The position numbers and the translations under genes are program-made. Of a DNA stretch of 64,000 nt, positions 34,801-62,594 are shown one piece after another. This DNA comes from Muricea muricata. Its lineage: Eukaryota > Cnidaria > Anthozoa > Malacalcyonacea > Plexauridae. Position 1 is the first letter of the stretch. Each line of letters opens with the position of its first letter. Below the pieces are notes generated by a model. That model had not been told where the DNA came from. It saw only the letters and a program-made list of their open reading frames with translations, and searched no databases. Location of the stretch: the NCBI GenBank assembly GCA_963855995.1, contig OY979717.1:68680354-68744353 (forward strand), read 5' to 3'.

Positions 34801-34825
34801 AAGTGCACTTTCGCACATATTTTAA
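25831..34825 (+). CDS. GLI: GLI/Ci-family zinc-finger transcription factor
   Basis: DNA-binding effector of Hedgehog signalling in animals. Five coding exons: 25831-26973, 30907-31182, 31731-31895, 32194-32304, 33092-34825; every junction is phase 0, giving 1141 residues. An in-frame TAA lies just before the ATG. Residues about 260-300 hold the N-terminal GLI block [15 protein letters not shown] followed by [10 protein letters not shown], which contains the SYGH motif that binds SUFU. Five C2H2 fingers span about residues 404-560, with GLI hallmarks [44 protein letters not shown] and [12 protein letters not shown]. After the fingers come several RRSS/RRSSE motifs (near residues 767, 785, 857 and 919), resembling PKA/GSK3/CK1 processing sites, and a short Gln tract. 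The C-terminal half is Pro/Gln/Asn-rich. The fingers separate it from GLIS and ZIC. Confidence 0.95.
30393..30520. repeat. Long imperfect hairpin in GLI intron 1
   Basis: ACAAATAATGAATGTTTATG and GTGCAATGGTAAGAATATTT on the left are matched in reverse by AAATATTCTTACTATTGCAC and CATTCATAATTTGT on the right, with arms of about 55 bases. A second small palindrome built on GAGTGCAATGGA lies at about 30692-30755 and shares the GTGCAATGG word. It could be a MITE or a folded transcript; it sits close before the first zinc-finger exon. Confidence 0.6.
31538..31620 (+). repeat. Dispersed repeat, GTGGCGTAGCCAGC type, copy 1
   Basis: Resembles 55026-55108 over about 80 bases (GTGGCGTA, CCAGC, ATTGGAGGG, CG.ATTTTGCA.CATTAAT, TCTTTTGA). 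It lies in a GLI intron. Its source element is not recognised. Confidence 0.6.
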
Positions 34826-36545: not shown

Positions 36546-39500
36546 CAATAAATACCGAAGGTTTTTGACGCAGCCAAGGAGTATTTCGTCGAAAACCATA
36601 CAAACCATGGTAACCAATTATTGGTTTTGGATTTTCCATAAACATACTGTGTCCTCTAATAACCTCTTCGGAATTTCCTGGAAAACATTAGTGTAGAAGG
36701 AATGAATCGATCATTAAAAGCAGCCTGACATTGATGATCTCAATCTTTCAGCCTCAGAAACCAAGATAGCTTAGACCACGTTATAAATATTGAAGAGTTC
36801 AATATTTTTAATAGAGCCGCCTGAACCAAATGCGTTGATGTTTGACGCTTTTCAATGTAGGGAATTTTATATCATGAGCAATGTTTCTAAAAATCGCATG
36901 ATGTTTAAACGGTTCGTGATCGGTTAAAGAGCTTTTTGGTGCGCTGTACAAAGATGTGGAATGGCCATCAAAACCTCCCGACCTTACTCCTTGCGATTTC
37001 TTTCTTGGGGGTTATTTAAAGAAGAAAGTTTTCACAAGTCCGCCAAATGACTTGATTTTGACCAACACTTTCTTTTGGTCTCTAAAAGATTGATCTTACA
37101 GAATGTAAAAAAAATTAACACACACCGAATAGTTTTTGTACTAAAGCACGTCAACGTTGGATTACCTTTTCTTGATACGCACTGTATATACTATATTTGA
37201 ATAGATTTTATATTCAATTTGCTACTAGTTTCATTTTGAGACTTCCTATCTATTACCTGCTCCATTTTGGTTTCTTAAGCGGATATTTGTTCCCATGCTT
37301 CCGGTCAAGTAAAATCTATCCATTTGTTTTCCACACAGCGAATCTCCTTGATTAACATCCTACAACGTTACAAAGTGTTGAATTATGAATACAGCGTGCA
37401 AATGCAGTTAATTTAAAGCAAGACTAGTTATTAAAAATGCTAGATGCGCGACCAGGATTCATAATAAGTTTCTGAAACGTTCTCTGATCGTAAAATTTAT
37501 TTTAGCACGTGCTTTCGACTGCCAGTCTGCAGTCTTCCACAGGTAATGTAATACTAAATATAAAACTAGTAGAATAGCTTTATATTTAGTATTACTTTAC
37601 CTGTCAAAGACCGCAGACTGGCAGTCGAAAGCTCGTGTTAAATAAATTTTACGATCTGAGAATGTTTTTAGAAACTTAAGACTAGTTATGTCTCTAAGCA
37701 CTTGTAAGCATGCTTGCCCTATTGTTCAGTTGAGACACGAGATATGGACAACTAAATTACTCACTATATTATTCTTATATAGCCTCCTCCGCAGGCAACA
37801 ATGATTTAATTTGAAAATTGCACGCTTTTAGACAATATTTTGATTGAGAAATACAATTGGTCGTGGCCAGGGATTTGCCAGGCGGAAAACGGATTCTGAT
37901 AATAAAAATGAGAGCCCAACATATAACTTTTAGTAAAGCCATCAAAGCAATAACAGTAAGATTTTAAAATAGTTTTATTCGTAACGTTTCGTCTTTAAGC
38001 TAAGACATCTTCAGACTAATAGTATAAAATTACATGAGACTATGAATATAGTCAAGCTAGTTATTTACATGGTGTAATGTTACAAAGTGTTAAGGATAAT
38101 AAAGGATAGGAAGGTAAGAATAGTACATAACAGGACGATACAACAAGGGGACAAAAAAAAGACAGACACAAAAAGCAATTATAGAAGATTAAGCGGAATT
38201 GAGCTGCCCTGCACGTTAAGAGAGGGTTTGAGCTTAGATGTAAGAACGCTTTCGTGAATCATTAATTCACAAGTGTCGGAGCAAGAGGAGAGAATTTCGA
38301 AGTCGTCAAAGTTGGCAGAGTGACCATCAATTCAAATAGTGTGGTTTTGGCCAGCTTTGATGTTACCTCTTTGTTTACCAACATTCCTGTTGGTGAAACC
38401 ATTGAGATCATCTCTAATCAAATCTTTGCCAATCGTGTGGTTTTCGAAGGCCTTGATCGCTCACAGTTTATCAAACTTCTATCTCTTGCTGTAAGAAACT
38501 GCCACTTTATTTTCAACAATCGTGTTTATCAACAAATCGATGGCGTGGCTATGGGCAGTCCTCTTGGCCCTCTCTTTGCTAATATATTCATGTCCTTCCA
38601 TGAAAAAACGTGGCTTCACAACTATCCTTCTCTCTTCAAACCTCTCCTGTATCGACGTTACGTTGATGACTGTTTTCTTCTTTTCAAATCCTTAAACCAT
38701 GTACCTCTTTTCTTGACTATCTTAACCGCCAACATCCTAGCATCTCTTTCACATCCGAACTGGAAAAAGACGGTAAGCTTCCTTTTCTCGGTGTTGAAAT
38801 ATTTCGCTCAAGCGGTAAATTTTCCACCTCTGTTTGTCGTAAACCCACTTTCACTGGTCTTTTCACGAATTTCCACAGCTTTATTCCCCTTGCCTACAAG
38901 CGCTCTTTAGTCTCTTGCTTACTGCACCGAATTTTTAACCTTTGTTCCACCTATGAAAACTTTCACGCTCAACTTGAAGTTGTTCGGAAGCTGTTTAACT
39001 TGAATGGTTTCCCTTACCACATGTTTGATCATCTTGTCCGTCGCTTCCTTGATAATATGTTCGACCCTAAGCCCACTCTTTACACAGTTCCTAAGAAAAT
39101 TGTCTATTTCTGTCTTCCCTTCACTGGCTCACACCTCTCTTCAAATTCGCAATCAAATCACACCAACTTTGCAATGCTGCTTATCCACATCTTAACATTC
39201 GATTTGTTTTTCGCTCCTCAACACGTATCTCTTCCTTCTTTCCTTTTAAGGATAAAGTTCCTAAGCTCATGAGATCTGGTGTTGTATATTTATTTAAGTG
39301 TCGATGCTGTTCCGCGTCGTATGTGGGTCAAACCACGCGCCATTTACACACCAGAATATCAGAACAATTGGGAATCTCTCCTATAACAGGAAAACCATCA
39401 TCCAGCCCAGTCATGTCTAGCATTTTCTCTCATTTAAACTCTACTGGTCACTCTGCCAACTTTGACGACTTCGAAATTCTCTCCTCTTGCTCCTACACTT

Positions 39501-41465
39501 GTGAATTAATGATTCACGAAAGCCTTCTTATATCTCAAACCCTCTCTTAACGTGCAGGGCAGCTCAATTCCGCTTAACCTTCTATAATTGCTTTTTGTGT
39601 CTGTCTTTTTTTTGTCCCCTTGTTGTATCGTCCTGTTATGTACTATTCTTACCTTCCTATCCTTTATTATCCTTAACACTTTGTAACATTACACCATGTA
39701 AATAACTAGCTTAAATATATTCATAGTCTCATGTAATTTTATACTATTAGTCTGAAGATGTCTTAGGTTAAAGACGAAACGTTACAATTGGTCGAGCGAA
39801 AATGGTTTACAGGGGCCTGGGACACCCCTCAATATCCCGCCCAAGTATTTCACGATCTCCTGCTATCCCTCAAAGTTGCTTGAGGAGGAGGCTAACCCTT
39901 ATAAATATAATCAGATCAGCAAAGTTTGAAAATATATAATGTGTTTAGGGAGGGGGGATGGGGCAGGCAAAGGGCAGGGTTTTTGAGGGGGATATGTGGC
40001 ATATAATTTTATGCATGCCAAAAAAATTCTTTTTGCTGCCAACACTTACAAGCGGTTTCTGGGGCAAGGGAATAGGGAGAGATCATAACATAACAGTCAG
40101 GGTGTTAGCTACAGTCAAAAATACTGTGTTCAACACAGTTTTCCCAACTAGTTTTAGACTTCCATTTCCCAATTTCAGTCACACAAGAGTTATATTATAT
40201 ATATTCCATTAATTCTGTGTTCACATCTGATGATCTTTCACAGGAGCGAATCAGCAAAATTTGACTACTATATTTTCAATATATAGTCATTTATACTCAT
40301 TTGGATTAACATCAGTTATATTTGTTCTATATTGCTAGCAAAATGAAGAAAATGGCATCTCAAAGAGACAACCATGCAAAAAAATCAGAAGGGGGCATAT
40401 CCGCAGACCCAGAAAGAACTATTACACTACAACACATTTGGACTAAATTTCTCAATTTTGGTTAGACATAATTTTTTTTAATTCTGGATAGCACCACGAC
40501 ACTGTTGGCAATTTCTATCACAGCAGTTTTATTGCATTCGACAAAAGATAATGCCTTTTAATCATGACTTGATGGCTGGATTCTTTGGCCTCTTTACATT
40601 TTTGGATGTGGCATTTGCCTCATCCAAAAATGTTATAAAATGACCAATCTATTATATCATTGTTCACGTTGCTTTAACTTTTAGTCTTGTTTACAATATC
40701 TATGCTTGCATAAACTCTCATACAGAATATTTCAGTAGTAAATGAAGTTCAGTTAACCTCTGTGTGATTGGTGCAAAATTGCTGTAATTACATACATGTA
40801 CAAGTCATTGATTTTTTCCTATAGACTTTTCAGCACTATTTGTCTGTTAAATATGCCCATTTATTAGTCCAATTTATTTTGCAGTCAATGTTGTGAGTTT
40901 GCTGACAAAGCCAACATTGGGGGGGGGGCACATCTCCCTACACCCCCCCCCCATCCCTGGATAACCCTTGTCTGAGGTATACTCCCCACATTACCCTTGT
41001 ATGAGGTATACTCCCCACTTTAAAATGTTAATGTAGCCAGAGGGCATTGCCTCTACCCTAGCTGCAACACAGTTGTCCTTTAATGGTCTCAGTTGCCAAA
41101 ACAAAACATGTACCATTTTAAATGTTTTGAAATACAATTTAATTAATATTATTGTTGATAAATAATATTATAGTATAACTTATTAACTCTTGACCATAAT
41201 TTACCTGCCCAGTTTTTATGAGTACTTTACGGACAGTTGGTGACTCAAAATAATTCTTAGCAAACTTGTCTTTTTGCCCATTATATGGTGGAATTGCGGT
41301 TGCCATTTTTGGATTAGCGCGTCCAGAATCATCAGAAAGTGTTCCGACAAAAACACAATCCAAAACGAACGATTTTTCCAACTTTCGCAGTTCAGCATCA
41401 GTTCTCTCTGGCGGACCGTACTTTACACATCGTGCTAATTGGTATTTTGGGGTAGAAAGCGGCAT
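36546..41465 (-). CDS. C17orf98-like conserved protein (three exons seen; last exon uncertain)
   Basis: The function of this small animal family is not established; I associate it tentatively with cilia or sperm. Exons on the minus strand: 41465-41205 (ATG at 41465), 37359-37257, 36677-36546, with consistent phases and GT-AG borders. The product so far is 165 residues. From memory of human C17orf98, shared features are: KSFVLD near residue 31; AIPPYNGQKDKFAKNYFES; VLIKTGQ; and PIIGYHGLYGFRRNTPWLRQ followed by KPSVF at the end. No membrane span or signal peptide is seen. The human protein ends a few residues after this point, so a very short last exon is expected below 36546; I could not place it. 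Intron 1 (3.8 kb) contains a Penelope-like element. The gene starts 516 bases from bL36m on the other strand. Confidence 0.7.
36950..37092 (+). pseudogene. Mariner-like transposase remnant
   Basis: The plus-strand frame from about 36953 reads DVEWPSKPPDLTPCDFFLGG, then YLKKKVF and PPNDL. This is the WP..SPDL.P.DFFLWG block around the third catalytic acidic residue of mariner-type DDE transposases. About 45 residues remain. It lies in intron 2 of the C17orf98-like gene. Confidence 0.8.
37470..37685. mobile_element. Inverted pair of Penelope-type ends with hammerhead-like core
   Basis: Two arms of about 95 bases face each other around 37570. Each contains the core GACTGCAGACTGGCAGTC (left arm, minus strand) or GACCGCAGACTGGCAGTC (right arm, plus strand), followed by GAAAGC and TTTTACGATC. 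The core fits a hammerhead fold: stem II GACTGC/GCAGTC, then GAAA, then stem III GCAC/GTGC, then TA. The usual CTGATGA is changed to CTGTGGA or CTGTCAA, so activity is doubtful. Confidence 0.6.
37981..39785 (+). mobile_element. Penelope-like retroelement with long terminal inverted repeat
   Basis: 1.8 kb. Plus-strand RT from about 38326: SFDVTSLFTNIP (motif A), GVAMGSPLGPLFANIF (motif B) and YRRYVDDCFLLF (motif C). After a frame shift near 38700 the reading continues as HPSISFTSELEKDGKLPFLG and on to about 39050. GVVYLFKCRCCSASYVGQTT, then RHLHTRIS and IHESLLIS form the GIY-YIG endonuclease (about 39270-39550). The outer 345 bases are inverted copies: 37981-38326 mirrors 39445-39785 and so repeats the last 30-odd endonuclease codons in reverse. 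The RT is cut at its N-terminal side where the inverted copy begins. This matches Penelope elements, which often carry a partial copy of themselves at the 5' end. Not functional as read. Confidence 0.88.
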
Positions 41466-41981
41466 TTTTTGGTGAAGTTTATTAACAAGGCATCCAACGA
41501 TTTGTTGACAGTTGGCGATCTATGGTTACCATGAACGCATAAATTTTGATTGTGAGTCAACTGCACTTTTCACGCTTTTTCATACAGAGAAACCCTGAAT
41601 ACACTGATTCCTTGATATCCATTCTACAATTCCTGAAACATGGAAAGTCCGTACCAAAATTCCTATTAGTCAAGTTACAGTAATACTCCTAGTTACAGCA
41701 AAAACTCCAAGAAGAAATTGATAAAAAAAGTAGTACTCCAATCAATATTTAATCACGCCACTAAAATTCGAGGTTGGCTTTGCAGAAATCAATAAATTTC
41801 AAATTTATATGACGCTATTCATAGACGCTACTCAAAATTCCGAAATGTAGCGAAAATGGGAATTGTGGGAACCATTCAGGAACCAACCACGTGAATCATT
41901 TCCGACGTTCCACGATCAACTTCTGCAAATGTACGTTATGAATTTTGAAATTTAGATTCTCAAAGTTCACTAAAGTCAGTC
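41466..41981. promoter_or_regulatory. Probable shared promoter of bL36m and the C17orf98-like gene
   Basis: 516 bases separate two start codons on opposite strands. No TATA box or other distinctive motif is certain. The head-to-head layout is the evidence. Confidence 0.45.
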
Positions 41982-45088: not shown

Positions 45089-48000
45089 CTAAGCTTCTTC
45101 TTCCTGGACAATCTTAAAGCATTTGTCACAAAGACGATGTGGACGTTTCGGTGCACACGACGAACAAAATGTTCCACTGCAACGATGGCAATGACATCGA
45201 GCCTGAAAAAGAAAAACAAGACGCGTGTTAAGACGTTAATTCCGCCTGCCGAGAAGAAAATGGGCACAAGGTGTACGTCTCATGTATTAGTATTAATCAG
45301 GAGGAGACGTAAAAAAGTCGTTCACTAAAGTTCTGTGCCATCCAATTATATGCAGTGCCAAAAAATAGAGAAAACTATAATGTGTGCTACGAATGTGGCA
45401 CAAGGTTAGCCTAAAATCTAATGAATGCTTTCGTGTTCAATATATATTTCACATGACTGTGAGTGGGTGCGTTCACTTTTCTGGACGTCCTTGAATGAGG
45501 TAAATACGCTGTCGTACACTACAACAAATGTCAAATGGTGATACATAGACATATCTTTCTTTACTGTCTGGGCACAGTATAGGGTATAAACAGTAGGGCC
45601 ACTCAGCAGTGCAACATGTCCCCCTATTTTTATGCACTTATCTGGCCAGAATAATGGCGGAACGGCCAGTTCAGCGTTCCTATTGGCCAGAAAAGGCAAT
45701 TGACTGGCCAGAACCTGCATAATGAACATGCGTAATGAGACAAGCGTGGAGACACAAACTTCAAAGGTTCCGACTCGAGTGGCCTTTCTGTTTATTTCTA
45801 TTCTGTGGTCTGGGGTTACGAAGGGAATGCTTGCTCAAAGTCAGGATTACTGTCAACTCGAGATAACAGGGACCTTAAGATGCAAGGACGGCAACGCGAC
45901 GACGACGGCTAGCAATACAATGAACTTAAAATTATTCAACCAAAGATATCAATAATGAAAGTCCCAGGGGAGATAGTCTTTGCTTAAGCTACAACACTAC
46001 AGGGTGAGTAAAAAAAAACTGACGCCCTTTCAAACTCAAATTAACCGCAAATTTCATTACGGAACTTTAAGTATTCCCACAGGTATACAGAGAACAGATC
46101 GTGACCAAGTACACAGTACAGGATGAGTAAAAAAACTGATACTATTGAAACTCAAACTAGCAGCATTGCATTCTTGCAATTTGACAGACGTTGATCTAAA
46201 ACAAAATCGAATTCCCAGTGGAAATTTAAATTGCATAATTTTAGCCGGGCAAGAATTGTCAGAATGGGTTTACGTACTGTGTACTAAATCACGATCTGTT
46301 CTCTGTATACTCATGGGAATACACCGTAATGAAATTCGCAGCTGAATTTGAAAGAGCATCAGTTTTTTTTTACTCACCCTGTAGAACACGCAGTTTTAAG
46401 CCGTGTCTACAACGTCGGCATTCCAAGCCGCAAGAATGCTAGAGTATGAGCAAAACTACACTGGAACTTTTCTTAACAGTAAAACATCAATCTTATTATC
46501 TCAAACGCTATTTTGTAAAATCGATAACAAACGATATGCTTTTGAAATTGTACAACAATTTATTTGAGTCAGTTTGCATTTGCCGTCGTCGTCGTGTTCC
46601 CGTCCTACATCTTAAGGTCTCTAACGTTACATTCATAGCCGGGCAAAAAGATGTCAACCGCACCTACCGGAAAACAATAGAGATTGATGATTGCGACTAA
46701 ATTATCGTTCCAGTTCAACACATAGACTAGAGTTCAGTGATGTGAATGATTGGATGAAATACTGCATGTTAAAGCTGATTGCAAGCTACTCGTAGCTATA
46801 GGTTTATTACCTGTATTATTGAGAATTTTTTCTTACATCCCATACATTTTTTAACGAAACTTCCAGTAGACCGAATAGCCGCTGTACATGCAGTATGAGT
46901 AATACCACACGACACTGATATAACCCGTTTGCCATCAAAACATTCTGATATCTGGGTTGGTTGAAACCTGAATAATATTTTAATAATTAATTTTGGAATG
47001 ACAGAAGCTGATTGAGTGTGGAAAACGCGTTTATTATACCTGGAGTCATCGTCGCCATGGCCAAGCTTACCATTGGAACCATTCCCCCACGTAAATATTT
47101 CACCCTTTTCTAGTAAAAAAGAAAACACCAATACCATTTAGTCATGGTTGAATCGGAAATCTGTCACTGAAATTAGGCAAAGTCACCCATGGAAAGAAAC
47201 CCAAAAATTTCAAACTAATTTCAAATTAATTTTTAAATGAGCGTTCTGTGCAGGGTGGTTTACATCATTGCAATGCACGAAGCTTTCTTACCTGAAAGGA
47301 AACTACGCTTAAAATTTGTTATGAATACTTCTTATAAGATGACGAACACCGTTGTTTTGGTTTCAAAGAAACTTATATAAGGCGCTGTTACACTACGCAA
47401 CTTATCTCGCAAGTTGTTTTGGTCTTAACAAAACTTCCAATTTAGTTACTAGTGGAGTCTACCAATTTCGGGGCTTGGAACACTGTCGTTTTAGACACGA
47501 CGTAAGAGTTTATGTTTTGACGTTGTAAGGAGAGCAAAGACGCCATCTTCCTCTCTCCTGGGACCTGATTAATCATAGTCTTTTCTTTAATAATTTTAAA
47601 TTCCTGGTATACCTAGCCGTCGTCTTTGCGGTTCCGTACCGGGACTGAAGGTCCCTATTAACCCACCTGAGACGCCAGCAGTGTAGTCAGCCCCACAAGA
47701 TACCGTCTTCATTTTTACGCCAGATGGAAACTTTATTCTTTCAGGTCTGTTACATTTTGCTGGACCATCTACTGTGTTCTTCTTTCCCAGTTGGTTATTG
47801 GTGTTGTCTCCAAAACAGTAGACTGAACCACTGACTATTAACATGTAAGAAAACGACAATCATCTGGAATAATTTCAATATAACTTGATATAAAGTAAGA
47901 CTACTTCTAAAACAATCTGAGAAAATCTTACAAGTCACAAGAGCTGTATGTCGACTACCACAACTGACGTCTTTTATCAACGCAATAAAACTAGAAATAA

Positions 48001-51000
48001 TAGATTTTCACGATTTTTAAACGAATTACAAACTGGGAATGAGGTCTACCGACTAAATTAGTTCAGCACATAATGTTATAGTGCTTATTAATAAGAATTA
48101 ACAAGTATAAAGCATTTGGCTTATATTGTTGTTATCATTCCTTGAATTCAGTTTAATTAATTTAACATGTGTACCAAGAACTACATGTAAATCACCTGTC
48201 ATCTTCCGAAATTTGAAGTTTGCAAGGTTTGCTGATTATCGCAAAATTAACTTCGGTACCAAGTTGACCAAATTCGTTTGTTCCCCACATCCAGACATTG
48301 CCACAATCTTAAGTGCACAAACAACTCTTGTATATGACTTGTATGTATACAGCATACTAGTGGTAGAACTAATACACAATTCCCTTTCGATAGAATATCT
48401 CCCAAGTAAAACAGATATAAAAATTTTCTAATGGACTTCTATATATGCTAAGAATTGAATGACTTAGTATTTCCTGTATTAAATATCAATAAGACACGTT
48501 CTTAAATGATAGGCCTGCATATTTCCTAATTTTCCCCAAGTACAACCTATTTTTCCGAGAATAATAGGAATGAGCAGACCAAAAGTTGAACTGACTGGAA
48601 AAAATGTGGAGATTTGAAAAGCCATTTAAGATATCATATACAAAGAATTTCATTGGACTGAGGCACATATCAAGCATGGCCTGCAGGATTGTCTGAAGCA
48701 ATTGGTTGGTATCTCACAATGAACATTTTGTGCCTCTGGCAACATGGCAAAGGTCTTCAGTACTAAATATGCCTTGCATTGCTATACCTTATGGCAACTT
48801 TGTTTTCACCTGTTTTTTTTCAACTCTTTAATCCACCTCAACCTATGCCTACCCATACCTACTGTATACCTGATACCCCGTGTCCCATATACCCTCTTCT
48901 CCTTACTCTACCAATACACCATTTTGATAATTACGTCATTTGACCTAAGATCCAAGCCTTCAGCCAATCACACTATGTAATTGTCACATTGCAACGAGGC
49001 TCGCAGACCCAGAAAATAATGACTACGTAGTTCTCAAAAGGGTGAATTGTATTACACTGAGTAGCATAAATCTCACCAGATACAGCAGCAGTGTGGTAAT
49101 CTCCACAGTCTACTTGCACCACGTGCTCCTCCTCAATATTTTCAAAATGAACCAAAGTTGGATCACGGCGAGGTGCATCATCGCCAAGACCAAGTTGATA
49201 AAATTTATTGTTGCCAAAAGCAAATAACTGACCATCACTTGTACAAGCTAGAAAAAGCCACAACATCATAGAAAGGTATCTGCCTTTCACAAACACTACA
49301 ACGGGGAAATATATCACCCTCAAGTATTTCATAGCTGCAAGTAAGTCCCTAGCAACGTGATAGCAACAGAAACTTTGGCTTTGGTTTCGTTTAGTTTGGT
49401 TTGGTTGGTTAGCTTTGGTTTTGTTTTAGATAGTAGGTTAGGCCAGTGGGAATCCATTCATGTGTACCACTAATTAGACGATGGAGCCACCAAACAAAAC
49501 AAAACAAGCAGAAACACTGAATACAGTAGATATAAAAAAGCATAAAATGTAACTCCGGCATTTGGCCCTCAAACCGACCGATGTTAGGAAGGATAGACCA
49601 TTGGCATGAGGACAGAACGCAAACCCGGAAGCGAAACGCACTTCAGGCAAAGTACTTCGTTAGTTACTCCTGCCTTTTACCCGCGCTTGCATGAATTGCA
49701 GCAATGTAAACAGCTATCCTAATGATTTGTGTTGTTCATCGCATTCTCCCTGTCCGTTTCAGTTCCATAGATATCTCATATACACTGGATGGTGCATCCC
49801 ACACTTTGGGAAGGCGAAAATTGAAGCCAGATCGCAGGCGCTGATCTTTCCCACGGAGTTGACACGGAGCATGATAATTTGTGTATTTTGTATGGCGGAA
49901 ATGGACGAAGTTGACAATAAGCCCTCTTTAATGATGCACCTAAAAAGTATTTAACACACAAATGCAGAAAAGTATAGTGTTTTCTGTGGCCGCCGCCTAT
50001 TGTTATGAAGGGATACCGCTGAGATTCTTGGCTTCACTTTTGATATACAGATGCGCTATCTAGTGTATATGAGATATCTATGTCCAGTTCTAATTGTTCT
50101 AAGTTGGCTGTTGAAGGTCGTACAGGTAACAGAAAAGGAAACCATAATCCTTTTGTACATACTTTAAAATGATCTGACAAAAAAACTTAAAGCTACTTAA
50201 AATCTTACCCAGAGTAAAATCTTTTCCACAAGACGCTTGAACAACAGTGTGGGAGGAAAGACTTTGAACAATTTTGGGAGTAAGTTGTTTTTCGTTTCCT
50301 GTTTCGTATCCAAGCTTGATACTACCATATCCCCATGTGTATAGCTTGCCCTCGTCTACACAAATATGAAATTTCAGCGAGCAAAGATTTCTGTCTTGCT
50401 GATTACAGTAAATCTGTATACAATGGATGTAAAGTCCCCGGATGGTAGTGGAGTACGTAATTGAAGTATATAATTGAAGTATATAATTGAAGTAGAATCA
50501 GATGAAAATTAACTCAATTTTGGTACTAAGTAGGACATTCAGTGATGGTCAAGGTGACAAGGTCCAGTAGACAGTGGGGGATCGAGACCAAACTGTTTAG
50601 GGGCGTCTTCTACAGACGTTTGACTTGCCGACCACTTAAATTCTGTTGATAAAATCAATTTATCAACAAGTCCCAGACCTTCCAGTATGCCTCTGCCTAT
50701 AGAAAATGTGTATAGCCCATTACCTCTACCTCTCTTGGCTACATTTACCTGTTACAGCAGCAGAATGATATTCATTGCATGATATATGCACAACATTCTG
50801 TTGTTGCAATGCCTCTACCCTCAGTGGTGTGTATCTATCTCGCAAATGACCTTGACCAAGTTGACCTTTCGAACCAGCTCCCCAAGATAGAGTCTCGCCG
50901 CAATCTGTTAAATTTAGAAAATTTTAGATTTGCTGTGTTATTTAGATTTGTCCCAGATAACTACGGTTAAACGTCCTTAATCGAGTAGACGTGAGAGATT

Positions 51001-54000
51001 TGCAATTTACAGGTGTCAGTTTAAAGGTCAAGGTTTTGATCAAGGTTTGAACCATGAGGGTGATTTTAGACAGAATGGTAACTGAATGACATAATAACAA
51101 TGTCTTGTGATACCCAGGGGCGTACCGAGGAGAGGACATTGAGGGCGGCACACCCTCCCAGTTTTGGAAGATTCGTTTTTGGTTCGTGATATTGTTTTTC
51201 GTTCCGTGATATCATTTTTATCCCGCAATATCGTTTTTTGTCCCATGCTATCGTTTTCTATCCCGCTACATTTGTCTCTATCAAAAAAGATGTTAAAAGA
51301 CAGGTTATTCGTATTTTGTTTTTGTAAAGTTCTACCTGTGAATCGACCTGCGTACATTTTATAATGATTTTCATTGAGGAAATAATTCATTTCAAAATAA
51401 AACCTGATTTTCGACTCCGCATGATAAAGGCTGCAAGTGTGTGATCAATAGGTTATTGTAACGCCTACCAGTAACACATAGCATATATTTAGCACCACAT
51501 GCTACTAGTCTAATATTTAGTCTCGATAAAGCATCAACAATTCTTGGTTTTTGTTCCTCTGTCTCTTCTCCATGTCCAAGTTTACTTTTCGTACCATCGC
51601 CCCACGTGTATAAATCACATGACTCAGCTGAAATGGTGGTGAAAGTAAACACAATACTTAGAAACAATACTCAGAAGATAAATTGAACAGAAGATTGATG
51701 AACTTACTGTTCTGTCGAGCCAAAGAAGTAGAGGTACCCACAGTTCCAGCTCCCGTGCGATTATCAGGTTCCTTCTGCAAGCAAAGTTAATACTCACGTT
51801 CAAAACCTTACACCTACAAAAAGTTTTTGACTTTTCGTCTTTATGGGCCTGTTCATATACGCTGGGGAGGCTCGCAAGTGACGATCTTCTGCATCGCATT
51901 TTGTTTTAAGACAAGAGCCGGACCAGCTTTGATTAGCGTACTAGGATTGGCGGGCTCCCGCTTAACTGGCTCATACGACTGCATCAAGTAATGTTACCAG
52001 ATCGATACGTTATCGTACCAAAAAATAGCGATTGAGACTGGTGGAAAACCTCTGCTTCGTCCCTAGGCGCTTGTTGATAGAACGACGCATTATATAAACA
52101 ATTTACAAGAAGTACTACGTCGCAGCATAAGCGCACAAAGGAAGACGGGACGTGGAGGGCCTTCGCACACACATCCCATCTTGCTTTGCGCACTTACGTA
52201 GCAGCATACAGAGTGTGTAAAAAAACTGATGCTCTTTCAAATTCAAATTAGCCGCGAATTTCATTACGGTTTATTCCCCCATGGGTCTACAGAGAACAGA
52301 TCGTGACTTTGTACACAGCACAGAGTGAGTAAAAAAACTGATACTATTGAAATTCAAACTAGCATCATTGCATTCTTGCAATTTGACAGACGTTGATGTA
52401 AGACAAAATCTAATTCCCTGTGAAAGTTAAAATGCATAATTCAAGATTCGTCAGAAACAAGACAAAGTCAGAAACAAGACAACATGGAATAAACCGTAAT
52501 GAAACTCGCGGCTAATTTGAATTTGAAAGGGCATCAGTTTTTTTACTCGCCCTGCGGTACGTCATGTGCAGTAAACTGTTTATAAAATTCGCCGTTCTAT
52601 CAGCAAGCGCCTGGGGACGAGGCAGAGAAAATCGTCTGAATTCTATACGGTGATTCATCAGTTACTGTCTCATTTGCAGAGAGGTTGAAACAATCAAACA
52701 ATACTTACAGATGTAAAAATGCAAGCATGAATCACTGACGATTTTTTCTGGATGGGGACGGGCACATCTCACCTAGGTACATACAGTAGCACCCACCTCA
52801 TCCATATTTACCCTACCTTGCTACTGTTTCTTTCCAGTGTTGAAACGATGGCTTTGACTGATCTGTCTGGATCTTCATCACCAGTGATTAGTTCTTGTAT
52901 AAATTCTTTGTCTTCAATACCGTTCAATAAAGCCTGAAATTGAAATTGAGTTCATTTCAAAAGACATTAGTCAGTCAGAACCTCAATATACGCATATACT
53001 ACCCCTATAACGCTCAAGCACCACCCCTCGAAGCCATCTTTGAGGACATCTTCCAATTGCCCGCCCATTTTCAATTACTACAGGTAAGCTCTACGGTCGC
53101 TGCATTGATCTCCACCAAAAAGACAGGGTCCTGAAAGGGGGGGGGGGCTTCCCATTTTTATAGAATGCAATTTCCTCACATTCTTTAACCAGAGTCCCAA
53201 GCGATAAAACTTTTCATATTGCTGTTGTGGATAACCGTGAGTTCATCAGCTATAAATGTTTTCTATTCTTTTCTATTCTATTCTAAAATTCTACTAACTC
53301 TCAATCCAATGAGCCACGTGTCGTATTCTTTCTTGTCTTCACTTATGAAGTTTAGACTTTGTTCTCCGTCATCACTTGTATACATTATCGAGATTGACAA
53401 AACCTCGATAAAAAAAAGCAAATCATGAACAACAGCATTATACATGACTGTATCAAACTTATATATTCAAATATTGCATGCTAATGTATCTTGTATTTAG
53501 TCTGAAGATGTCTTATGTCACTTATGTTAAGACGAAACGTCACTTTTAATAAACATATATAACCTTATGAAACTGGTCTATTTGTGGCTCTACTAAAAGC
53601 ACTATGTTGGGCTTTGATATTTATTCTGCGAATTCGATTTCCGCCCGGCAATTCTATCGCCACAGTATTGTATTAAAGTTATTAACAGCAACCTTGTAAG
53701 TTGTCTGTCACAAGTTGTAAAAAGCAAGTTGGAAACTTGAGAGAACAAACTAGCGACAAGCAGCATATATAGGAACACAATTTGTTGATAACAGGATTTG
53801 TAACAACTTTTGCGTGCACACGATTCTAATGTATATGATTTTCATTCAAAGTACAAAAAACATATCAGTCTTGGTAGCGCATTGACAGCTGATTAATTAG
53901 CTGTGTTTGAGAAAAAATACATAGATAGTAGATGGTAAAACATACCAACCTTATAATCATCAGGAATTCTAATATTTTCAAAAAAATTTGTCTTTTTTCC

Positions 54001-57000
54001 TTCAAGAACTTGCGTCATTTGTGATATGAGTACTACAGTTTAAGGAAGGAAACGTTACTATCTATTCTGTCACGTCTATGTTGGTTGTGTATTTGCTTGG
54101 GTACTAACGTTAAATATCTCCACAAGGTACGAAGTCACAAAAATTGTACCAAACAAGTTATATTGTTACATTGAATGATGTCTACAAAAAAACTGGCTTA
54201 ATTTGTAAGGCTTTACACAAGCCACTGCAGTTGGTTACGGCAATAGACCTTATGCATAAGTCGTGATCTGGGCCGTGTATCCTAGGAAACAGGAATTCAG
54301 GCATTGTTATTGGTCACTGTTTGCGACAAGTGACCAATAACAATGCGTAAAATCCCGTATCCTAGGATACACGGCCCGGATCACGACTTATGCATAAGAT
54401 CTATACATCCTCTAATTCAAAACTACATTAAACATGTTAAAATGTAAGAAGCGAACAATACATGTACCATAACATGTTAAAGATTACCGCTTGATTTTTC
54501 TCTTGATTTCTTTGGGGCTTGCCACTGAAGGTAAGCCAGATCTTCAAATGAAATTTATATATTGCTATTTAGTATATAGAATTTCTTTCTCTGTTTTAGA
54601 AAAATACCGTAGTAGAAAAAGTCAAGCCACTGATAGACGGATAGATGATAGATGGCTTAATACAGTAATGTAATACAAGGCAAAAAATCGAGTCTTGTTG
54701 AAAAAGGATACAACAATGTTGTTGGCGCAATATTGTTCCTGGTTATTGACAATAATGTTCGGAATTGTTACGCCTGATTGTTGACAACTAGGAACAACGG
54801 TGCCCTAACAACATTGCTGCATGCTGCTTTCAACAACCTGTTACAACACATAACTGACATGCATGCATAGAGATAAAACACATGAATTAGGGACGTTTTC
54901 CACTTTCTCACGTCCTAAGTAATTTTTATTTATAACGAACGGAATTACTAGAGCACACTAAGTTGTTGGTAATGTTAAATAGAGAAATAATACTCTCTGT
55001 CAAAACTTTTGTTCAATTAAAATGTAATCAGTGGCGTAACCAGCGTTGATAATTGGAGGGGCGAATACGAAGTTATCGTGTTTTGCACCATTAATTTCTT
55101 TTGAAATCGATAAACAAATACAACTAACTTTACTCAATAACGGTTGTCTTTCCAAAAGTGTATACTGTTAACTATGAGCGCGCGAGGGATGACGGGTTAT
55201 TGCTTATTTTCAGCTCCAAACCTGGATTTACCTCTTTGAAACAGCATCGAGGGTACATAGGAAGCTTACGAGCGCAAATTTCACTGGGCACACAAGTAAT
55301 TCCCTGAGTACCAGGGCGTAAATAAACAATAATCCATCATCCCTTGCGCGCTCATAGTTCACAGTTTACGCTTTTGAGAAGACAAGCTTAACTGGCTGCA
55401 TACGAACAATGACATTCACTCAAACGTGTGTGCGTGTACGTGATAAACAGCAGTCCGCCGAAGAGCAGTACGTAACTTGCATCTGACGCAAGTCAATATT
55501 ATAAAATGTTAGATTGCATCAAAATGTCATACTCTACCTTTAGAAAGAAACAACTTCCTAAAACGGGGTCGATTCTAAACAAAATATAATCAGAATGCAA
55601 GACCACGTACATTCAATGACGCACAAGCAGGTGAAACATGTTGCAAAATTTATCATGTAAACTATTCGTTTGAAATTCCTTGTTTTCAACACAACTCAGG
55701 TATAATTAGAACAAGGTGGTAATAGTAAGAACAGATGGCTGTCATAAATATAGCTGTACTATTGAGGCAAACTAGTTCTGAACAACAAAATCTATTCCAC
55801 ACGTACAGGTTAGAGAATACTATAATCACATTGGGATAATCACTATATTGATTATTGCTATACTGATTAACTTTGACATTTTAAAACCCCTAAAATACCA
55901 GGTGTACTATTTTAAATTGGCCTTTTTAAGTAAAAATTATTAGATTCTTGTGTTACTCTTTCTTTAGAAGGTGGTAAAGGGTATTTTCGTGAGCCATGAT
56001 TGATTAATACCGGTATCTGTTTCTGTGAAATGCTTGCTGTGAAATGTGATTTGTTCTATGCCCATGAGGCATGACTCTAAATAAAAATCTTAATGCTCCG
56101 TCAAATGAGAATAAAGGATGTCACTCTTGTGAAATGTGACTTGATTGTTCAAATGAGTAAAAATTTCTTCGGAGGTTGGCGGATGTTCTAGTTACTCAAA
56201 CATAAACCCACGTTTTTTGAGAAATGTGAAACACATGTAGCTGAGCTCCCAGGTTGTTCAATTATGTCACACTTGCTACATCCTTTGATGTGTGAAGCTT
56301 TTTTAAGACACATGAATTGTGTACACTGCTTTTCTCCCCCCCCCCCCTGTGAAACGTGCTTTGCCCTGCCCCTTTTTCCTGTTTATTTACTCATACATAT
56401 AAAACCTAATATCAATAGTTTAAAGTTTGAAGGGAAGGATAAATGTAATTTAGTTCGATACAAACAAGTTTTAGAATCTGGTACAAGTAAAAATTAGGTT
56501 TCAGTACAGTACATAAATGGTAACATACAGGGTGTCCCAAAAAAAGCGGAGTTCTGCATTCAAGTTTAAATCTTGAAAAGAATATTAAGCAATGAAATTA
56601 GTTTTTATTCTTGTTTAAAAGTGTATTCATTTAGCTTTCTTTGGATTGGTTGTCTATAAAATTTGAGCGAGTAAGTCACAAGTTATGGTGCATTGACCCA
56701 TCATGATTGGAAGTTTTTAAAATTGAGATAACGCTTAAATACATCACATGTTCACTATCTGTATTCAAAGTCGGTATCTGGATCTCATATTTGGAAGCTG
56801 AACATTCATCTCATTTTTTAATGCTTTCGTGGTTTGTTGATCTTCTGTAATAAAAGTGTGTTTGAGGCAGCGTAAAGTAAATTTTGTCTTTAAGCCAGCT
56901 CAAAAGAAAGACTAGTACCAATCACTGTCTCATGAAATGTGGTGAATGCATTTAATTGCAATTCGATCCATTTAATTTCAATCAAGGGGATCTCAATCAG

Positions 57001-59431
57001 ATTTATTTTCTTCATCGATATTGTTTTATTCTGTTACCGGTAGTTAGTATAAAATCATATTCAACAAGGAGACTGAATTACTTCTGCTGTGGAACACTAA
57101 GTGGGCATTAGACAGTCTCAAACTACCCATGTGGCACCAAATTATGTCCTTTTTTTAAGCATCTCAAAGTGACCACGCGCTAAAATCGTTTCTGTAGTTG
57201 TATTACTTGGTTCAAGTAGACATGGAATACCTTGTTCGAAAGGCAAATGAACAAACCATAAAACAAAAAAATATGATCAAGTTTCCATTAAGCAATCAAT
57301 CTCAGAAGTTGGACTCTGGTTTTTTGGGACACCCTGTACTGCAGGGTATATACAGTAGTGCTGCCTGTATACACATACCAATTTCTCAACCAAAAGCATG
57401 TTTGCTCCTTTAGACATTTCATAGATAGCACTGATAACTTCACCAGGTACCTGGCTGTAATTGCCATTGTTCTGAGTCATCATCGATTTTATGGCTGTAA
57501 CGACACTTGATCTGTAATAATGAAGGTGTAATTGATTATGACCATTATATTTACTGCAAATAGATTTACTAGACTCTTTATTGGTCATAATTACTCTAAC
57601 AATAATGGGAGGGGGGGGATAGAAGTTTCTCAAACACTCATTCAATATATATGACACCAAAATATTTGTGGGTTCACTAATCAAGGTAACTGCAATTAAT
57701 GACTGTAAGAGGTGACTTCTCATCCAAAACAGTTCATTCCAGGTATCATTAAGATATGTAATACTACTAAATTAATGCATTACTTCAGGCAACACCTATT
57801 TTGCTGCATGCTGTTTGAAAGTAAGTCAAGCATGCCTGAAAATAAAAAATGATCTAATATCTTGAATATTATTGTACGCCTATTTATGATAACAGATACA
57901 ATTTACATACTTTGGTCAATACTTAAATCCATAATTAAGGCTGGGCGATTATCAGTTACTTGGTATTGATACCACCTGATACTAGGCCTAGACCAGAAGT
58001 AGTTGGTACTGCACAGTATCAAAACCTTTTTTGATTATTCCTATTAAACTTTTTTTGATCATTTGTAGAGAAAATTTTTATTTCTTTTGTGTTTTTCTGC
58101 ATTTATTATTAAGAAACTTAGGCAATTTTACATGCCTTCAACTGATCTGCAAATCTCAACAACCTTGGCCTGAAGAGCTAATTATATCACAATCACATCG
58201 AAATTGATACTGCCAGTATTGCCCAACACTACTGAACATGAAGGTAAATTGGGTGAGGGGTAATTTATTATGTGACACTAGGATAAACCAATTTTCTCAT
58301 TTTTATTCATCATTCCATATATGAACAGTGATCAGAAATATGGACAGGGATTATTCATAAGCCTTTAATTTCTTATTACCATAGAGTAATGATAGAATAT
58401 ATCTCGGAATATATATATATGTGTGCTGGGGCATTTGCAAATAAAAGTGTGTTCTTACACATTCAGCACTGACTCTAGAGTTGCGTCTGTGCAAAGGCAA
58501 CACTGACTCCAGTCTGAATCAAATCAATTCGGATCATCATATTGACCCAGTGGGTTTTTTCATTGAAATAAATCATTTATATGAGAAACAGCTTCCAAAA
58601 AAGAAGGACCATAAGTTTGAATTTAACGAGGAAACTGTGGTACGTATATGTGGACATTTGCCTCAATCCAATATTATTAATACGGTCAAAAGACAGTAAA
58701 TACGATCCTTTTTATCACAATCCCTAATACACAAACAATACATGTATTAACATTTATTTGGCTTTTCGTTTATTACATTTATTAAAGACTACGGTATTTT
58801 GATTTACAGAAATCGATGATTCTATATATTGTATTTATATAAACAAAATAAAAACAAAGAGAGCGCAAAGCTCATTATAATTTCTAATATTCGCGCAAGT
58901 CAATGTGATCAACATTGTTGGTTATTTCTTACCTTGATCTTGGGACAGGTTGTTTCGTTGTTTCAATGAATCATTGCTTCTGTCAGCTCATAGTTTGCTT
59001 ATTATTTATTTTTGTGGCAAAAAACAATCGCCATTTACCAAAGCATATTTTACAAAATCCGGGTTCAAAGGTCATTGAAATTTAATCTACATAGCAACCC
59101 AGATAGCAACGAATGGCAACAGAAATGGATTAAGCATCGCCCCCCCCCCCCCCCCCTTCCCCGCCTTCTTGAATAAAAATTGAATTGTGAAATTCCTTGT
59201 AGCGTTCCGATGTGGCCTGACTTCTGTGCATGTGGTACCTTTCTGTAACGCGAAATATATTAGGGCCGGTGCGCCATGGTAACGAGATTGCCGCTCTATA
59301 CGAGTCAATACGACCTGTGATATTACCAACATCCCAAGCCAAAATCTTCACCTCGAAATCTTTGGAAGTAAAGCCGGTAAAGTCGTGAAGACCCAAGGCC
59401 AAGCAGGCCGATTTGTTAGGAATGCCTTTAG
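45089..59431 (-). CDS. Seven-repeat RCC1 propeller protein with C-terminal FYVE-like zinc finger
   Basis: At least 17 coding exons on the minus strand: 59431-59239, 58979-58933, 58486-58461, 57511-57451, 54032-53950, 52933-52817, 51774-51708, 51627-51469, 50904-50749, 50355-50209, 49247-49077, 48307-48196, 47990-47932, 47834-47667, 47109-47040, 46967-46811, 45202-45089. All junctions are GT-AG and phase-matched: 634 residues, start exon missing. The N-terminal 198 or so residues are unrecognised. Then come seven blade motifs: DLYTWGDG, TLSWGAGS, KLYTWGYG, QLFAFGNN, NVWMWGTN, SVYCFGDN and EIFTWGNG, each followed after some 30 residues by an SCG/ACG turn. The C-terminus (CMGC, RCHCHRC, FCSSC, LCDKC) is an eight-ligand FYVE-like finger ending in EEEA, suggesting phosphoinositide membrane binding. 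RCC1 propellers often act in GTPase regulation or as scaffolds; the role here is inferred only. Plant PRAF proteins join RCC1 and FYVE too, but with a PH domain. Confidence 0.88.
46000..46381. mobile_element. Mariner-type MITE family C, copy 1
   Basis: Ends CAGGGTGAGTAAAAAAAAAC and the reverse complement, flanked by TA. About 382 bases, non-coding. An internal start-like word, GGATGAGTAAAAAAACTGAT (about 46123), suggests a nested or duplicated end. Copy 2 is at 52209-52554. It lies in the last intron of the RCC1-FYVE gene. Confidence 0.85.
48398..48785 (-). repeat. Dispersed repeat family D, copy 2
   Basis: Inverted counterpart of 43735-44115. It lies in the intron between RCC1-FYVE exons 49247-49077 and 48307-48196. 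Confidence 0.85.
49766..50082 (-). mobile_element. MITE family B, copy 2
   Basis: Ends CATAGATATCTCATATACAC and the reverse complement GTGTATATGAGATATCTATG, better preserved than copy 1 at 15560-15906 and opposite in orientation. Internal words (GTGTGGGATGCACC complement, GCGCATCTG, CTTTTCTGCATTTGTGT complement) match copy 1. Intronic in the RCC1-FYVE gene. Confidence 0.85.
51177..51265. repeat. Degenerate minisatellite, unit about 21 bases
   Basis: Four or five copies of a unit like ATATCGTTTTTTGTCCC (TTTTGGTTCGTGATATTG, TTTTTCGTTCCGTGATATC, TTTTTATCCCGCAATATC, TTTTTTGTCCCATGCTATC, TTTTCTATCCCGCTAC). Intronic. Confidence 0.7.
52209..52554. mobile_element. Mariner-type MITE family C, copy 2
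   Basis: Shares ACAGAGAACAGATCGTGAC, GAGTAAAAAAACTGATACTA and TTGCAATTTGACAGACGTTG with 46000-46381. Ends are more decayed: CAGAGTGTGTAAAAAAAC at the left, GTTTTTTTACTCGCCCTG at the right. The second half of the body is shortened and rearranged. Confidence 0.8.
53500..53546 (+). repeat. Solo Penelope-type end with hammerhead-like core
   Basis: CTGAAGATGTCTT, a loop, AAGACGAAACGTCAC: the same core as at the ends of the element at 37981-39785 (CTGAAGATGTCTTA and AAAGACGAAACGTTAC). No coding part nearby. Confidence 0.6.
54244..54403. mobile_element. Near-palindromic MITE, about 160 bases
   Basis: AGACCTTATGCATAAGTCGT, then GATCTGGGCCGTGTATCCTAGGA on the left is mirrored by TCCTAGGATACACGGCCCG and ACGACTTATGCATAAGATCT on the right, with about 60 bases between that contain a further palindrome (GTTATTGGTCACT / AGTGACCAATAAC). 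It is almost entirely foldable. RCC1-FYVE intron. Confidence 0.85.
55026..55108 (+). repeat. Dispersed repeat, GTGGCGTAACCAGC type, copy 2
   Basis: Same family and orientation as 31538-31620. It lies just left of the inverted-repeat element at 55144-55386. Confidence 0.6.
55144..55386. mobile_element. Inverted-repeat element with GC-rich arms
   Basis: Left arm contains CTATGAGCGCGCGAGGGATG, right arm CATCCCTTGCGCGCTCATAG; the arms extend for about 65 bases each (TTGTCTTTCCAAAAGTG against CGCTTTTGAGAAGACAA at the outer ends). Central part about 105 bases. Non-coding. Confidence 0.8.
56528..57336. mobile_element. Mariner-type nonautonomous element, 809 bases
   Basis: Ends CAGGGTGTCCCAAAAAAAGC and the reverse complement of CAGGGTGTCCCAAAAAACCAG, flanked by TA duplications. 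Neither strand shows a transposase. Intronic in the RCC1-FYVE gene; its right end is about 115 bases from exon 57511-57451. Confidence 0.88.
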
Positions 59432-59505
59432 CTTAATTAATAAGTTTGAACCAACACGCTCACAATTCCAAAATAGTTTTATAATTTGTTAAAATCACCG
59501 TTTAA

Positions 59506-60733
59506 GGTGGCTCCCTACGGTTTTAGTTAAAAAGTGCATTGTTGGCGTGAAGACCGTCTCATTTCCACATCTTTCATTATAAAACTATGAAATTCAGTAC
59601 AAGTGTTATTGGAGTCTTGCTGAAGATTTTAAAGTGGTGATTTTGCGCTAAAACATTGTTGCCATGGCAACGAATGGATAAGAACATGGCTTGCGTTGCG
59701 TCTTCTTTCCGCAATTTTCAAGATTTCCTTCGGTGAATTATTTTTTAATTGAACATGTTGTATAGTTCTGACGTAAGGGTTTCACTTACACACTTTAAAA
59801 AAATTCTATCAATAGGTTTTTTTATTATCTTACAAAATGTCAAAAATCAATATAAAAAAAAATCCCTTTGATAAAATTTTTCAAAAAAATCACATTTCAA
59901 GCACTTGGGCGATGGTAATTGATGAGCGAAATTTTAAAAAAATTCACCGAAGGAAACGGGCAAAATTCACTGTTTAATTTCATTATATTTTTTTGCTTTG
60001 ACGTCATAAAATTTTTGAAACCAGTTTTTCACGCGTGGTCCGGCATATTTCGTGGACAACAACCAGAACAGCGAGAAATGCGTGTTTTTGATAATAGCCG
60101 TAGTATTTTTTCGTTTGAACGGTGCAACCTTATTTAAGAAGAGATTAAAAGACATTCATATTGCCAAAAAGTAAAAACAAGACATAATAAGGCATCAAAT
60201 CAAACCACTGCTTCTTAAATTTATTCTTGTCATTAAAAACCGATGTACGAAAATATTCTCAAAACTCATGACTGTATGCACGATAGTTATAAGACTATGT
60301 TATTAAAACACGACAGACATCCGACCTTAATTAAACAAGAAAACTTACATAAGCTTCGGTAACATTTCAGAAGAGCCATGAAGTCGATAAAGACAATACA
60401 AAATGGTTCAGTCGGAGTCCATACACTTTCGTAAAATTTCGAGCAACAAAAATTACATTACCGGACATAAAAAAGCGCCTAAAAATCGTTTTAAAACTGA
60501 TCTAAATCACCTAATACTTGAACTTGGAAACACAAACGATTCTAAGCAAGAACTGTCGTCTTTTTTGTGTGCAGAAACACAAAAATATCGGCGAAAATAA
60601 TGTTTTCAACTTTGAATGAGAAAAATTTATAGCTGGCCACGAACATTCCACGCGTGATTAGTGCGGACAGCGTCTGATCTCTATAAATCTGGTTATAACT
60701 GGTTATAACTGAACAAAACCATAGGGAGCCACC
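59506..60733. mobile_element. TTAA-flanked TIR element, 1.2 kb (Kolobok- or piggyBac-like)
   Basis: TTAA precedes GGTGGCTCCCTACGGTTTTA at the left; the right end is ACCATAGGGAGCCACC followed by TTAA. TTAA duplications occur in piggyBac and Kolobok families; GG-starting ends favour Kolobok. No transposase is visible, so it is nonautonomous. An internal pair, TTTCCTTCGGTGAATTATTT (about 59724-59743) against AAAAAATTCACCGAAGGAAA (about 59936-59955), makes a further inverted repeat. It lies between the RCC1-FYVE 5' exons and the METTL24-like gene. Confidence 0.8.
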
Positions 60734-61488: not shown

Positions 61489-62594
61489 TCACCTAAGAGG
61501 TAGGTTAATAAGATTTGTGTTGATAAATGTAGTTTCATAACACTCCATACAATACATATTTTTATGCATATTGGCAATTTTAAATCCTTGTCTGTCCAAC
61601 CACATGACTATACCATAATAGCGACGAACACCAAATGGCGTGCGATCTACGACATGAAACTCGACATCAAGTTGTTTCACATATTTTTTCAGTGTTCCGT
61701 CAGACAACATTTGTGGAAGGCATTTCCACTCATCCCACTCAATGTCCATCTTCAAAACATCCACCAATCTCTATAAAAATGTTTCTCGTGAGATTGTCTC
61801 ATGTGTGAGCGAATTTACCAACAGACTATTGCCCAATTCATAGGGAAGGCGAGTACCTACGGTTTAACTTTCTTATCCGACAAGACTCTTGCCGTCTTGG
61901 TGTCCTGTTTATCATATCGAAGAGACAACAGGCTACCAGTCGCAACATACAAATTCAATTCCTTCTCAGGTTGTTCATCATAATTCTACACTAAATTCTA
62001 TTCAACTCTATCTCGGAATATGGCTGAGAGCTTGTTGGATGCACATGCATGGGAGAATATTTGGTAATTCAACCAAGCAATTCAATATGATAATGTATGA
62101 AAAACCCCTTGAAAAAACTCTCACCAGTAATAAGCCTCTAGAATTACAGATTTCAATCTAGCATTTTGCATGCTTGTATAAATATTGTAAATTAAATTAT
62201 TTTTAGAAAACGGGAGAGTGCCTTTTACATGGGACTTCAACTCTTCAAGTCCCGTTCGCACTTTCCCGCTTGGGCATTGTCCAATAAAATAAAAAAAAAC
62301 ACGGAAGGATCCTGTTGCACAAGCTCTAATTTTGGCGGTGAAAAATCTGCTAGCATGTTACTTGCCTTGTTGTGCCGAAGCTCAGTAATAATGGATTTCA
62401 ATGTTCTAGTTTTCCACGCAGCCTTTCCAGACTGCCCTGGAGTTCCTTCCGAGTCATGGTCTGCTAAACCGACTTTAAAGAACTGTACATATGCTGAACG
62501 AAGATGGCTTTCCTTCTTCATGGTGGGATCAAATGCATACACCCGACAGCCGTAGTTTGCAATACTATCATCAAATGACCATTCATCATTTATT
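61489..62594 (-). CDS. METTL24: METTL24-like methyltransferase-domain protein, last two exons
   Basis: A family with an FkbM-like methyltransferase fold and usually a secretory leader; substrate unknown. Exons on the minus strand: 62594-62366 and 61770-61489 (stop TGA), giving about 170 C-terminal residues. Visible landmarks: NDEWSFDDSIANYGCRVYAF and DPTMKKESHLR at the cofactor-binding part; WKTRTLKSIITEL; VDVLKMDIEWDEWKCLPQML, the conserved acidic motif; KQLDVEFHV; and a C-terminal CMECYETTFIN. The intron starts with AAG|GCAAGT, a GC donor, and keeps phase 0; no GT donor nearby does. Exons for the N-terminus and signal anchor should lie above 62595, beyond or behind the element at 62965. The RCC1-FYVE gene follows on the same strand. 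Confidence 0.85.

Follow-up and report, generated by a model that had tools for sequence, protein, structure and literature searches.

A predicted Muricea muricata protein with PH, RCC1, and FYVE-type domains in the order of plant PRAF proteins

An intact-looking animal gene on the minus strand of a 64,000-nucleotide stretch of the Muricea muricata genome (the window) is predicted to encode a PH-RCC1-FYVE protein of at least 626 residues. The gene model joins, in one reading frame and in this order, a PH domain, an RCC1 propeller of seven blades, and a C-terminal FYVE-type zinc finger. Rebuilt from splice sites, the gene (45089..57511) consists of 17 open exons whose phases are consistent throughout, separated by 16 GT-AG introns of 72 to 1804 nt (Table 1). 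Its first in-frame ATG lies at 57483..57481 in exon 1 (MMTQ...), from which the product counts 626 residues, and a stop codon at 45089 directly closes the exon of the finger. The initial annotation of this DNA had likewise proposed 17 phase-matched exons, a set that is probably not identical to ours. Its central proposal, that RCC1 and FYVE elements occur together in one animal gene, is borne out by this single in-frame model.

Table 1. Coordinates of the gene model, a candidate upstream exon, and neighbouring genes within the window
Feature	Coordinates	Strand	Remarks
Candidate upstream exon	59352..59431	-	80 nt; probably the first exon of the initial annotation; splice-compatible only
Exon 1	57379..57511	-	133 nt; in-frame ATG, PH start (beta 1)
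Exon 2 (microexon)	55538..55574	-	37 nt; NRPRFRKLFLSKD; predicted PH beta 2
Exon 3	54488..54541	-	54 nt; DLAYLQWQAPKKSREKSS; PH beta 3
Exon 4	53950..54032	-	83 nt; LISQMTQVLEGKKTNFF...; PH from beta 4 on
Exon 5	53299..53403	-	105 nt; PH end including C-terminal helix (EYDTWLIGLR)
Exon 6	52817..52933	-	117 nt; final PH residues and linker
Exon 7	51708..51774	-	67 nt; linker
Exon 8	51469..51627	-	159 nt; phase 1-1; RCC1 blade 1
Exon 9	50749..50904	-	156 nt; phase 1-1; RCC1 blade 2
Exon 10	50209..50355	-	147 nt; phase 1-1; RCC1 blade 3
Exon 11	49077..49247	-	171 nt; phase 1-1; RCC1 blade 4
Exon 12	48196..48307	-	112 nt; phase 1-2; RCC1 blade 5, part 1
Exon 13	47932..47990	-	59 nt; phase 2-1; RCC1 blade 5, part 2
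Exon 14	47667..47834	-	168 nt; phase 1-1; RCC1 blade 6
Exon 15	47040..47109	-	70 nt; phase 1-2; RCC1 blade 7, part 1
Exon 16	46811..46967	-	157 nt; phase 2-0; RCC1 blade 7, part 2, and zinc cysteines 1-2, KKCMGCKKKFSIIQ
Exon 17	45089..45202	-	114 nt; remaining FYVE finger (RCHCHRC...PHRLCDKCF) and stop codon
NARG2 C-terminus	11683..12966	-	Pfam 1.8e-36
GLI zinc-finger exon	30907..31221	+	2gli 7.8e-33
SPMAP1-like (sperm microtubule associated protein 1 family)	41142..41519	-	Pfam 6.6e-21
Methyltransf_22 end (tentative)	61492..61770	-	20.1 bits, below cut-off 22.4

The N-terminal region, previously left unrecognised and described as lacking a PH domain in its visible part, proved to be one. Pfam PH_12 matched the whole spliced protein with an E value of 1.6e-8 (35.5 bits) and the N-terminal 176 residues with 1.6e-9 (38.8 bits), in both cases above the cut-off of 27 and over positions 9 to 131 of the 131-position profile. 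Two pieces complete the domain: the 37-nt microexon, which enters in phase 0, leaves in phase 1, and fits the expected PH strand, and an exon 4 that begins at 54032, since shortening that exon to start at 54008 lowered the PH_12 score from 38.8 to 28.3 bits. The microexon was taken from 115 phase-compatible AG...GT segments, 52 of them 25 to 64 nt long, and the choice was not blind, because the segment was selected for its likeness to PH beta 2. Six of the 52 segments of suitable length, scored as controls, reached 33.8 to 34.6 bits against the 38.8 bits of the microexon, whose placement as PH beta 2 is a prediction from fit and frame. PH_12 exceeded its cut-off in nine of nine N-terminal versions scored (28.3 to 38.8 bits), and a PH domain is predicted whichever of the nine holds.

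Another acceptor in the PH region, at 54590 (54488..54590, minus strand), was rejected: it brings in an in-frame TAA, and the microexon together with the acceptor at 54541 was used in its place, being preferred because it avoids this stop and resembles PH beta 2. The segment opened by the 54590 acceptor adds a second PH-like strand (RKKFYILNSNI), followed by the TAA and then, without a change of frame, by exon 3. A poison splice form, a duplicate in decay, or coincidence might explain it. The stop bears on a less favorable reading of the locus, in which the exons of two genes have been joined by the model or the frame is broken in vivo. With the stop masked, the 54590 version scores 36.9 bits with PH_12, near the 38.8 bits of the microexon version, and the general PH model prefers it (16.7 versus 13.8 bits, both under the cut-off of 25.1). 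However, 17 open exons run in phase, every intron is GT-AG, the microexon avoids the stop, and profile matches cross the exon junctions. Blade 7 ends in exon 16, which also encodes zinc cysteines 1 and 2, and exon 17 supplies the other six, so the start of the finger is not another gene's unless exon 16 is wrong, and the earlier placement of finger and propeller in one gene is upheld. We regard an artefactual model or a decayed gene as very improbable.

The gene extends farther upstream than its homology-supported part, which starts in exon 1. Because exon 1 is preceded by an acceptor, one or more additional exons, coding or 5' untranslated, lie upstream. The candidate in Table 1 can be spliced in phase to exon 1; the donor matches 6 of 9 consensus letters (5 to 8 in the gene's own donors), and the acceptor has 11 pyrimidines in 20 positions (10 to 17 in the gene's own acceptors). 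It contains no ATG, begins after an AG, and gave no significant Pfam match by itself; adding it left the PH_12 score not raised (38.3 versus 38.8 bits without it), and another frame, at 59133..59432, gave no Pfam match. The exon that had been proposed to begin at 59431 is thus compatible in splicing, and homology does not support it. ATG-starting first exons with the phase of exon 1 and a strong donor, sought in 57560-61490, yielded two tiny candidates, neither preferable.

In the propeller, Pfam RCC1 was found in seven stretches of the spliced protein (1.8e-91), in agreement with the seven blades counted earlier, and WD40_RLD was matched end to end (6e-93; profile positions 1 to 363 of 363). 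Blades 1, 2, 3, 4, and 6 occupy one exon each, with phase 1 on both sides, and blades 5 and 7 are split over two exons (phases 1-2-1 and 1-2-0, respectively). The introns between blades fall at a nearly equal position of the repeat, directly before the strand that opens the following blade, as would be expected if the blades had multiplied as exons.

The best solved relative of the propeller is UVR8 (1.5e-69), followed by HERC2 (1.4e-52), HERC1 (4.5e-51), RPGR (2.3e-45), and RCC1 (6.4e-33). Where UVR8 (4dnv) reads GWRHT, GFRHT, and GWRHT, the predicted protein reads NEYHS, GKDFT, and GDYHT (third aligned block). The UVR8 tryptophans at the aligned sites serve in UV-B reception, and because no tryptophan stands at these sites here, a UV-B receptor is ruled out by this test. 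Alsin (ALS2), an endosome-associated protein (PMC3017826), has an RCC1-like propeller in common with the predicted protein but differs in its DH-PH, MORN, and VPS9 set; here Alsin_RLD reached 58.8 bits, short of its cut-off of 100, none of DH, MORN, and VPS9 was listed as a match, and assignment to ALS2 was rejected.

The C-terminal finger, proposed to be of FYVE type, is recognized as such on its own and not in its full context: the last 55 residues alone gave a Pfam FYVE match of 33.5 bits (4.5e-8), which clears the curated cut-off of 27.8, and the same match within the whole protein reached 22.4 bits, below it. Eight zinc cysteines lie in four CxxC pairs with FYVE spacing (588/591, 604/607, 612/615, and 624/627, in a numbering that counts a leading X as 1), with an extra cysteine at 602. 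The best solved relatives are EEA1 (3.0e-7 and 3.6e-7) and then Vps27 (2.8e-5), with WDFY3 and RUFY1 also among the first. The finger differs from that of EEA1, its closest solved counterpart, in the lipid motif, the WxxD motif, and loop length. In place of R(R/K)HHCR it carries ARCHCH (ARCHCHRC versus RRHHCRQC in EEA1), keeping the second R and the second H and replacing the first R, the first H, and the last R with A, C, and H. The residues of the RRHHCR motif presumably contact lipid in FYVE fingers. Such contact is supported in part by PMC3017826. The RVC motif reads RLC, a conservative change that keeps the R, and the WxxD site reads RSTG, with G for D, at a place where the alignment to EEA1 is of low confidence. 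Plant class V fingers are also described as devoid of WxxD, having WxxG, the G alone, or neither (PMC3017826), and the G found here may be a trait common to them or may be chance. Ahead of the final cysteine pair, the finger has a loop with 8 residues fewer than that of EEA1.

The altered lipid motif, the missing WxxD, and the shortened loop leave room for an alternative in which the zinc finger serves structure only and its reading of PtdIns(3)P has been lost, so that membrane contact, if any, would be made via the PH domain alone. The finger nevertheless remains basic (its final 53 residues contain 12 K/R and 4 D/E), keeps the R of RVC, and has a hydrophobic II in the loop preceding the lipid motif, and the HNCY variant fingers of plants are reported to bind phosphoinositides (PMC2837644, PMC3017826). 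Loss of lipid reading is in our judgment a serious but somewhat doubtful reading, and we continue with a finger that would still contribute to membrane contact.

Domain order likens the predicted protein to the class V FYVE proteins of Arabidopsis (PRAF/RLD), which are described as carrying PH_PLC, RCC1, and FYVE in that order (PMC3017826). The comparison with PRAF had been drawn earlier from RCC1 and FYVE; because a PH domain is also present, the order is the PRAF order and the likeness is closer than was thought. An N-terminal PH domain, an RCC1 propeller, and a finger after the propeller that is FYVE-like when scored alone are all found. Two other traits are not. The finger motif (K/R)(R/K)HNCY, reported as the variant motif of class V proteins (PMC3017826), is replaced by ARCHCH, and BRX (DZC) was absent among the 9 Pfam families listed at E values up to 10 for the whole protein, which has no room for it because it ends 9 residues past the last zinc cysteine. 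BRX is reported in seven of nine class V proteins by one source (PMC3017826) and in eight of nine by another (PMC6941992). The plant protein RLD1 is also longer, with about 1100 residues (3309-bp coding sequence) versus about 630 here. We liken the predicted protein to PRAF by domain order and do not count it among PRAF/RLD members or orthologs, because BRX and the HNCY motif were both tested and neither was found.

Whether the common order reflects common descent is a separate question. An ELMO-like PH domain, an RLD propeller, and a FYVE finger might have been joined independently in animals. Consistent with such convergent assembly, the only solved PH relative among the matches is the weakly matched PH domain of ELMO1 (0.0023; residues 77 to 158 of 176), the finger is closest to that of animal EEA1, and neither BRX nor HNCY, the hallmarks of the plant proteins, is present. 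The ELMO1 match is confined to the C-terminal portion of the PH domain, and outside that domain ELMO1 is unrelated. However, the PDB matches include no PRAF chain, which may be the sole reason why ELMO1 and EEA1 rank first, and convergence would have to account for the same order of three domains, a blade number of seven where plants have six or seven, and a PH_12 match running nearly the length of its profile. We hold independent assembly to be possible, though less likely than not.

The alternative, to which we give slightly less than even confidence, is that PH-RCC1-FYVE proteins are not a plant invention and form an ancient eukaryotic family of GTPase regulators guided by phosphoinositides. 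Some animals would have retained this family, with no BRX tail and with a finger that has diverged, and it would be missing among human RCC1 proteins. The union of RCC1 with FYVE has been called plant specific with one exception, Nematostella vectensis, the single case outside green plants in the available text of a 2010 survey (PMC2837644); our protein is likened to it by that mention only, not by sequence, PH domain, or finger motif. The whole PH-RCC1-FYVE architecture seems unique to plants according to the available text of PMC3017826, where none of the 18 human RCC1-superfamily proteins has it; the nearest, PAM, likened here by description only, differs in domain order and carries other domains. 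What appears to be new here is that an animal protein has the PRAF domain order while it lacks BRX and carries a different finger motif. A complete animal PH-RCC1-FYVE gene contradicts the strict form of the plant-specific claim, and such a protein would let the membrane and GTPase roles be studied without the BRX-binding polarity partners of plants.

Text searches of the literature, with subscription journals and database annotations outside their scope, returned no study of an animal PH-RCC1-FYVE protein. Animal proteins of this type may well carry automatic names in public databases. The RCC1-FYVE text matches were four plant papers (by title) and the survey PMC2837644, and the single match in which Nematostella was named as well was a paper on myosins, so that the description of a poorly described animal family in the initial annotation accords with the single Nematostella mention in the literature searched. 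Relatives were also sought in two sequence collections, viral_contigs (2 stretches matched a pattern, 0 confirmed) and genome_contigs (30 stretches, 0 confirmed); these misses say little, because the collections are viral and prokaryotic.

By analogy with PRAF, we give about even chances to a propeller that is guided by phosphoinositides and works on a trafficking GTPase. The two domains that flank the propeller are of types that frequently bind phosphoinositides. Together, the PH domain and the variant finger would hold the protein on phosphoinositide-containing membranes, either endosomes or trafficking vesicles, perhaps as two weak contacts acting jointly, and the RLD-type propeller between them would act there on the GTPase, either as a Rab exchange factor itself or as a platform that brings one in. 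Among the plant proteins, a class V protein is reported to bind PtdIns(4,5)P2 through its PH domain and both PtdIns(3)P and PtdIns(5)P through its finger (PMC3017826), the RLD of PRAF1 to catalyse exchange on Rab8a (PMC6941992, citing Jensen et al. 2001), and a PRAF protein to bind GNOM, an Arf exchange factor, and to work with it (PMC8748900). Against a membrane role, the PH domain of ELMO1, the nearest solved relative of the PH domain here, is not known as a strong phosphoinositide binder. Because the finger motif has diverged, reading of PtdIns(3)P is the weakest link of this mechanism, and the earlier suggestion of an endosomal-membrane link is plausible as a proposal drawn from domain content.

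The propeller might instead be only a protein-binding scaffold, without catalysis of its own, that recruits another regulator while the PH domain and finger provide membrane placement. Many RCC1-like propellers are not known to be exchange factors, and UVR8, HERC2, HERC1, and RPGR all rank before RCC1 among the solved relatives. Binding roles are documented in related settings: the FYVE-CC part of PRAF4 is reported to bind the C-terminal half of GNOM (PMC8748900), and, on macropinosomes, the RCC1 part of Dictyostelium TbcrA to bind the PH protein PripA (PMC8980073). In contrast, the PRAF1 propeller is reported to be active on Rab8a (PMC6941992), and the coiled-coil and BRX parts with which the plant proteins bind partners were not found here by Pfam. 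We consider a purely scaffolding propeller the less likely reading, and a propeller that would act on a trafficking GTPase, directly or as a platform, remains our working model.

Judged by its neighbor genes (GLI, SPMAP1-like, and NARG2), the window, with a G+C content of 36%, is animal. The PH-RCC1-FYVE gene is flanked by the SPMAP1-like gene and the tentative methyltransferase-like end, all three on the same strand. Sixteen introns and this animal setting make contamination from a plant or alga unlikely. An open stretch of 577 amino acids at 33092..34822 (plus strand), with no Pfam match, may be a large exon of the GLI gene, and a reverse transcriptase fragment at 38266..38907 (plus strand; RVT_1, 2.2e-8) is probably part of a retroelement.

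Several repeats were observed within the introns of the gene. A 156-nt repeat occurs in two of them (46076..46231 and 52278..52433; 88% alike), and one copy is enclosed by 69-nt inverted arms (93%) at 52209..52554, an arrangement resembling a nonautonomous transposon. Inverted repeats were also found between exons 3 and 4 (54243..54404; 76-nt arms, 91% complementary, 10 nt apart) and in the intron following the microexon (55135..55394; 75-nt arms, 83% complementary). Elsewhere in the window, a long simple array at about 1080..1630 (plus strand) reads as repeated TSHHI in the three plus-strand frames listed.
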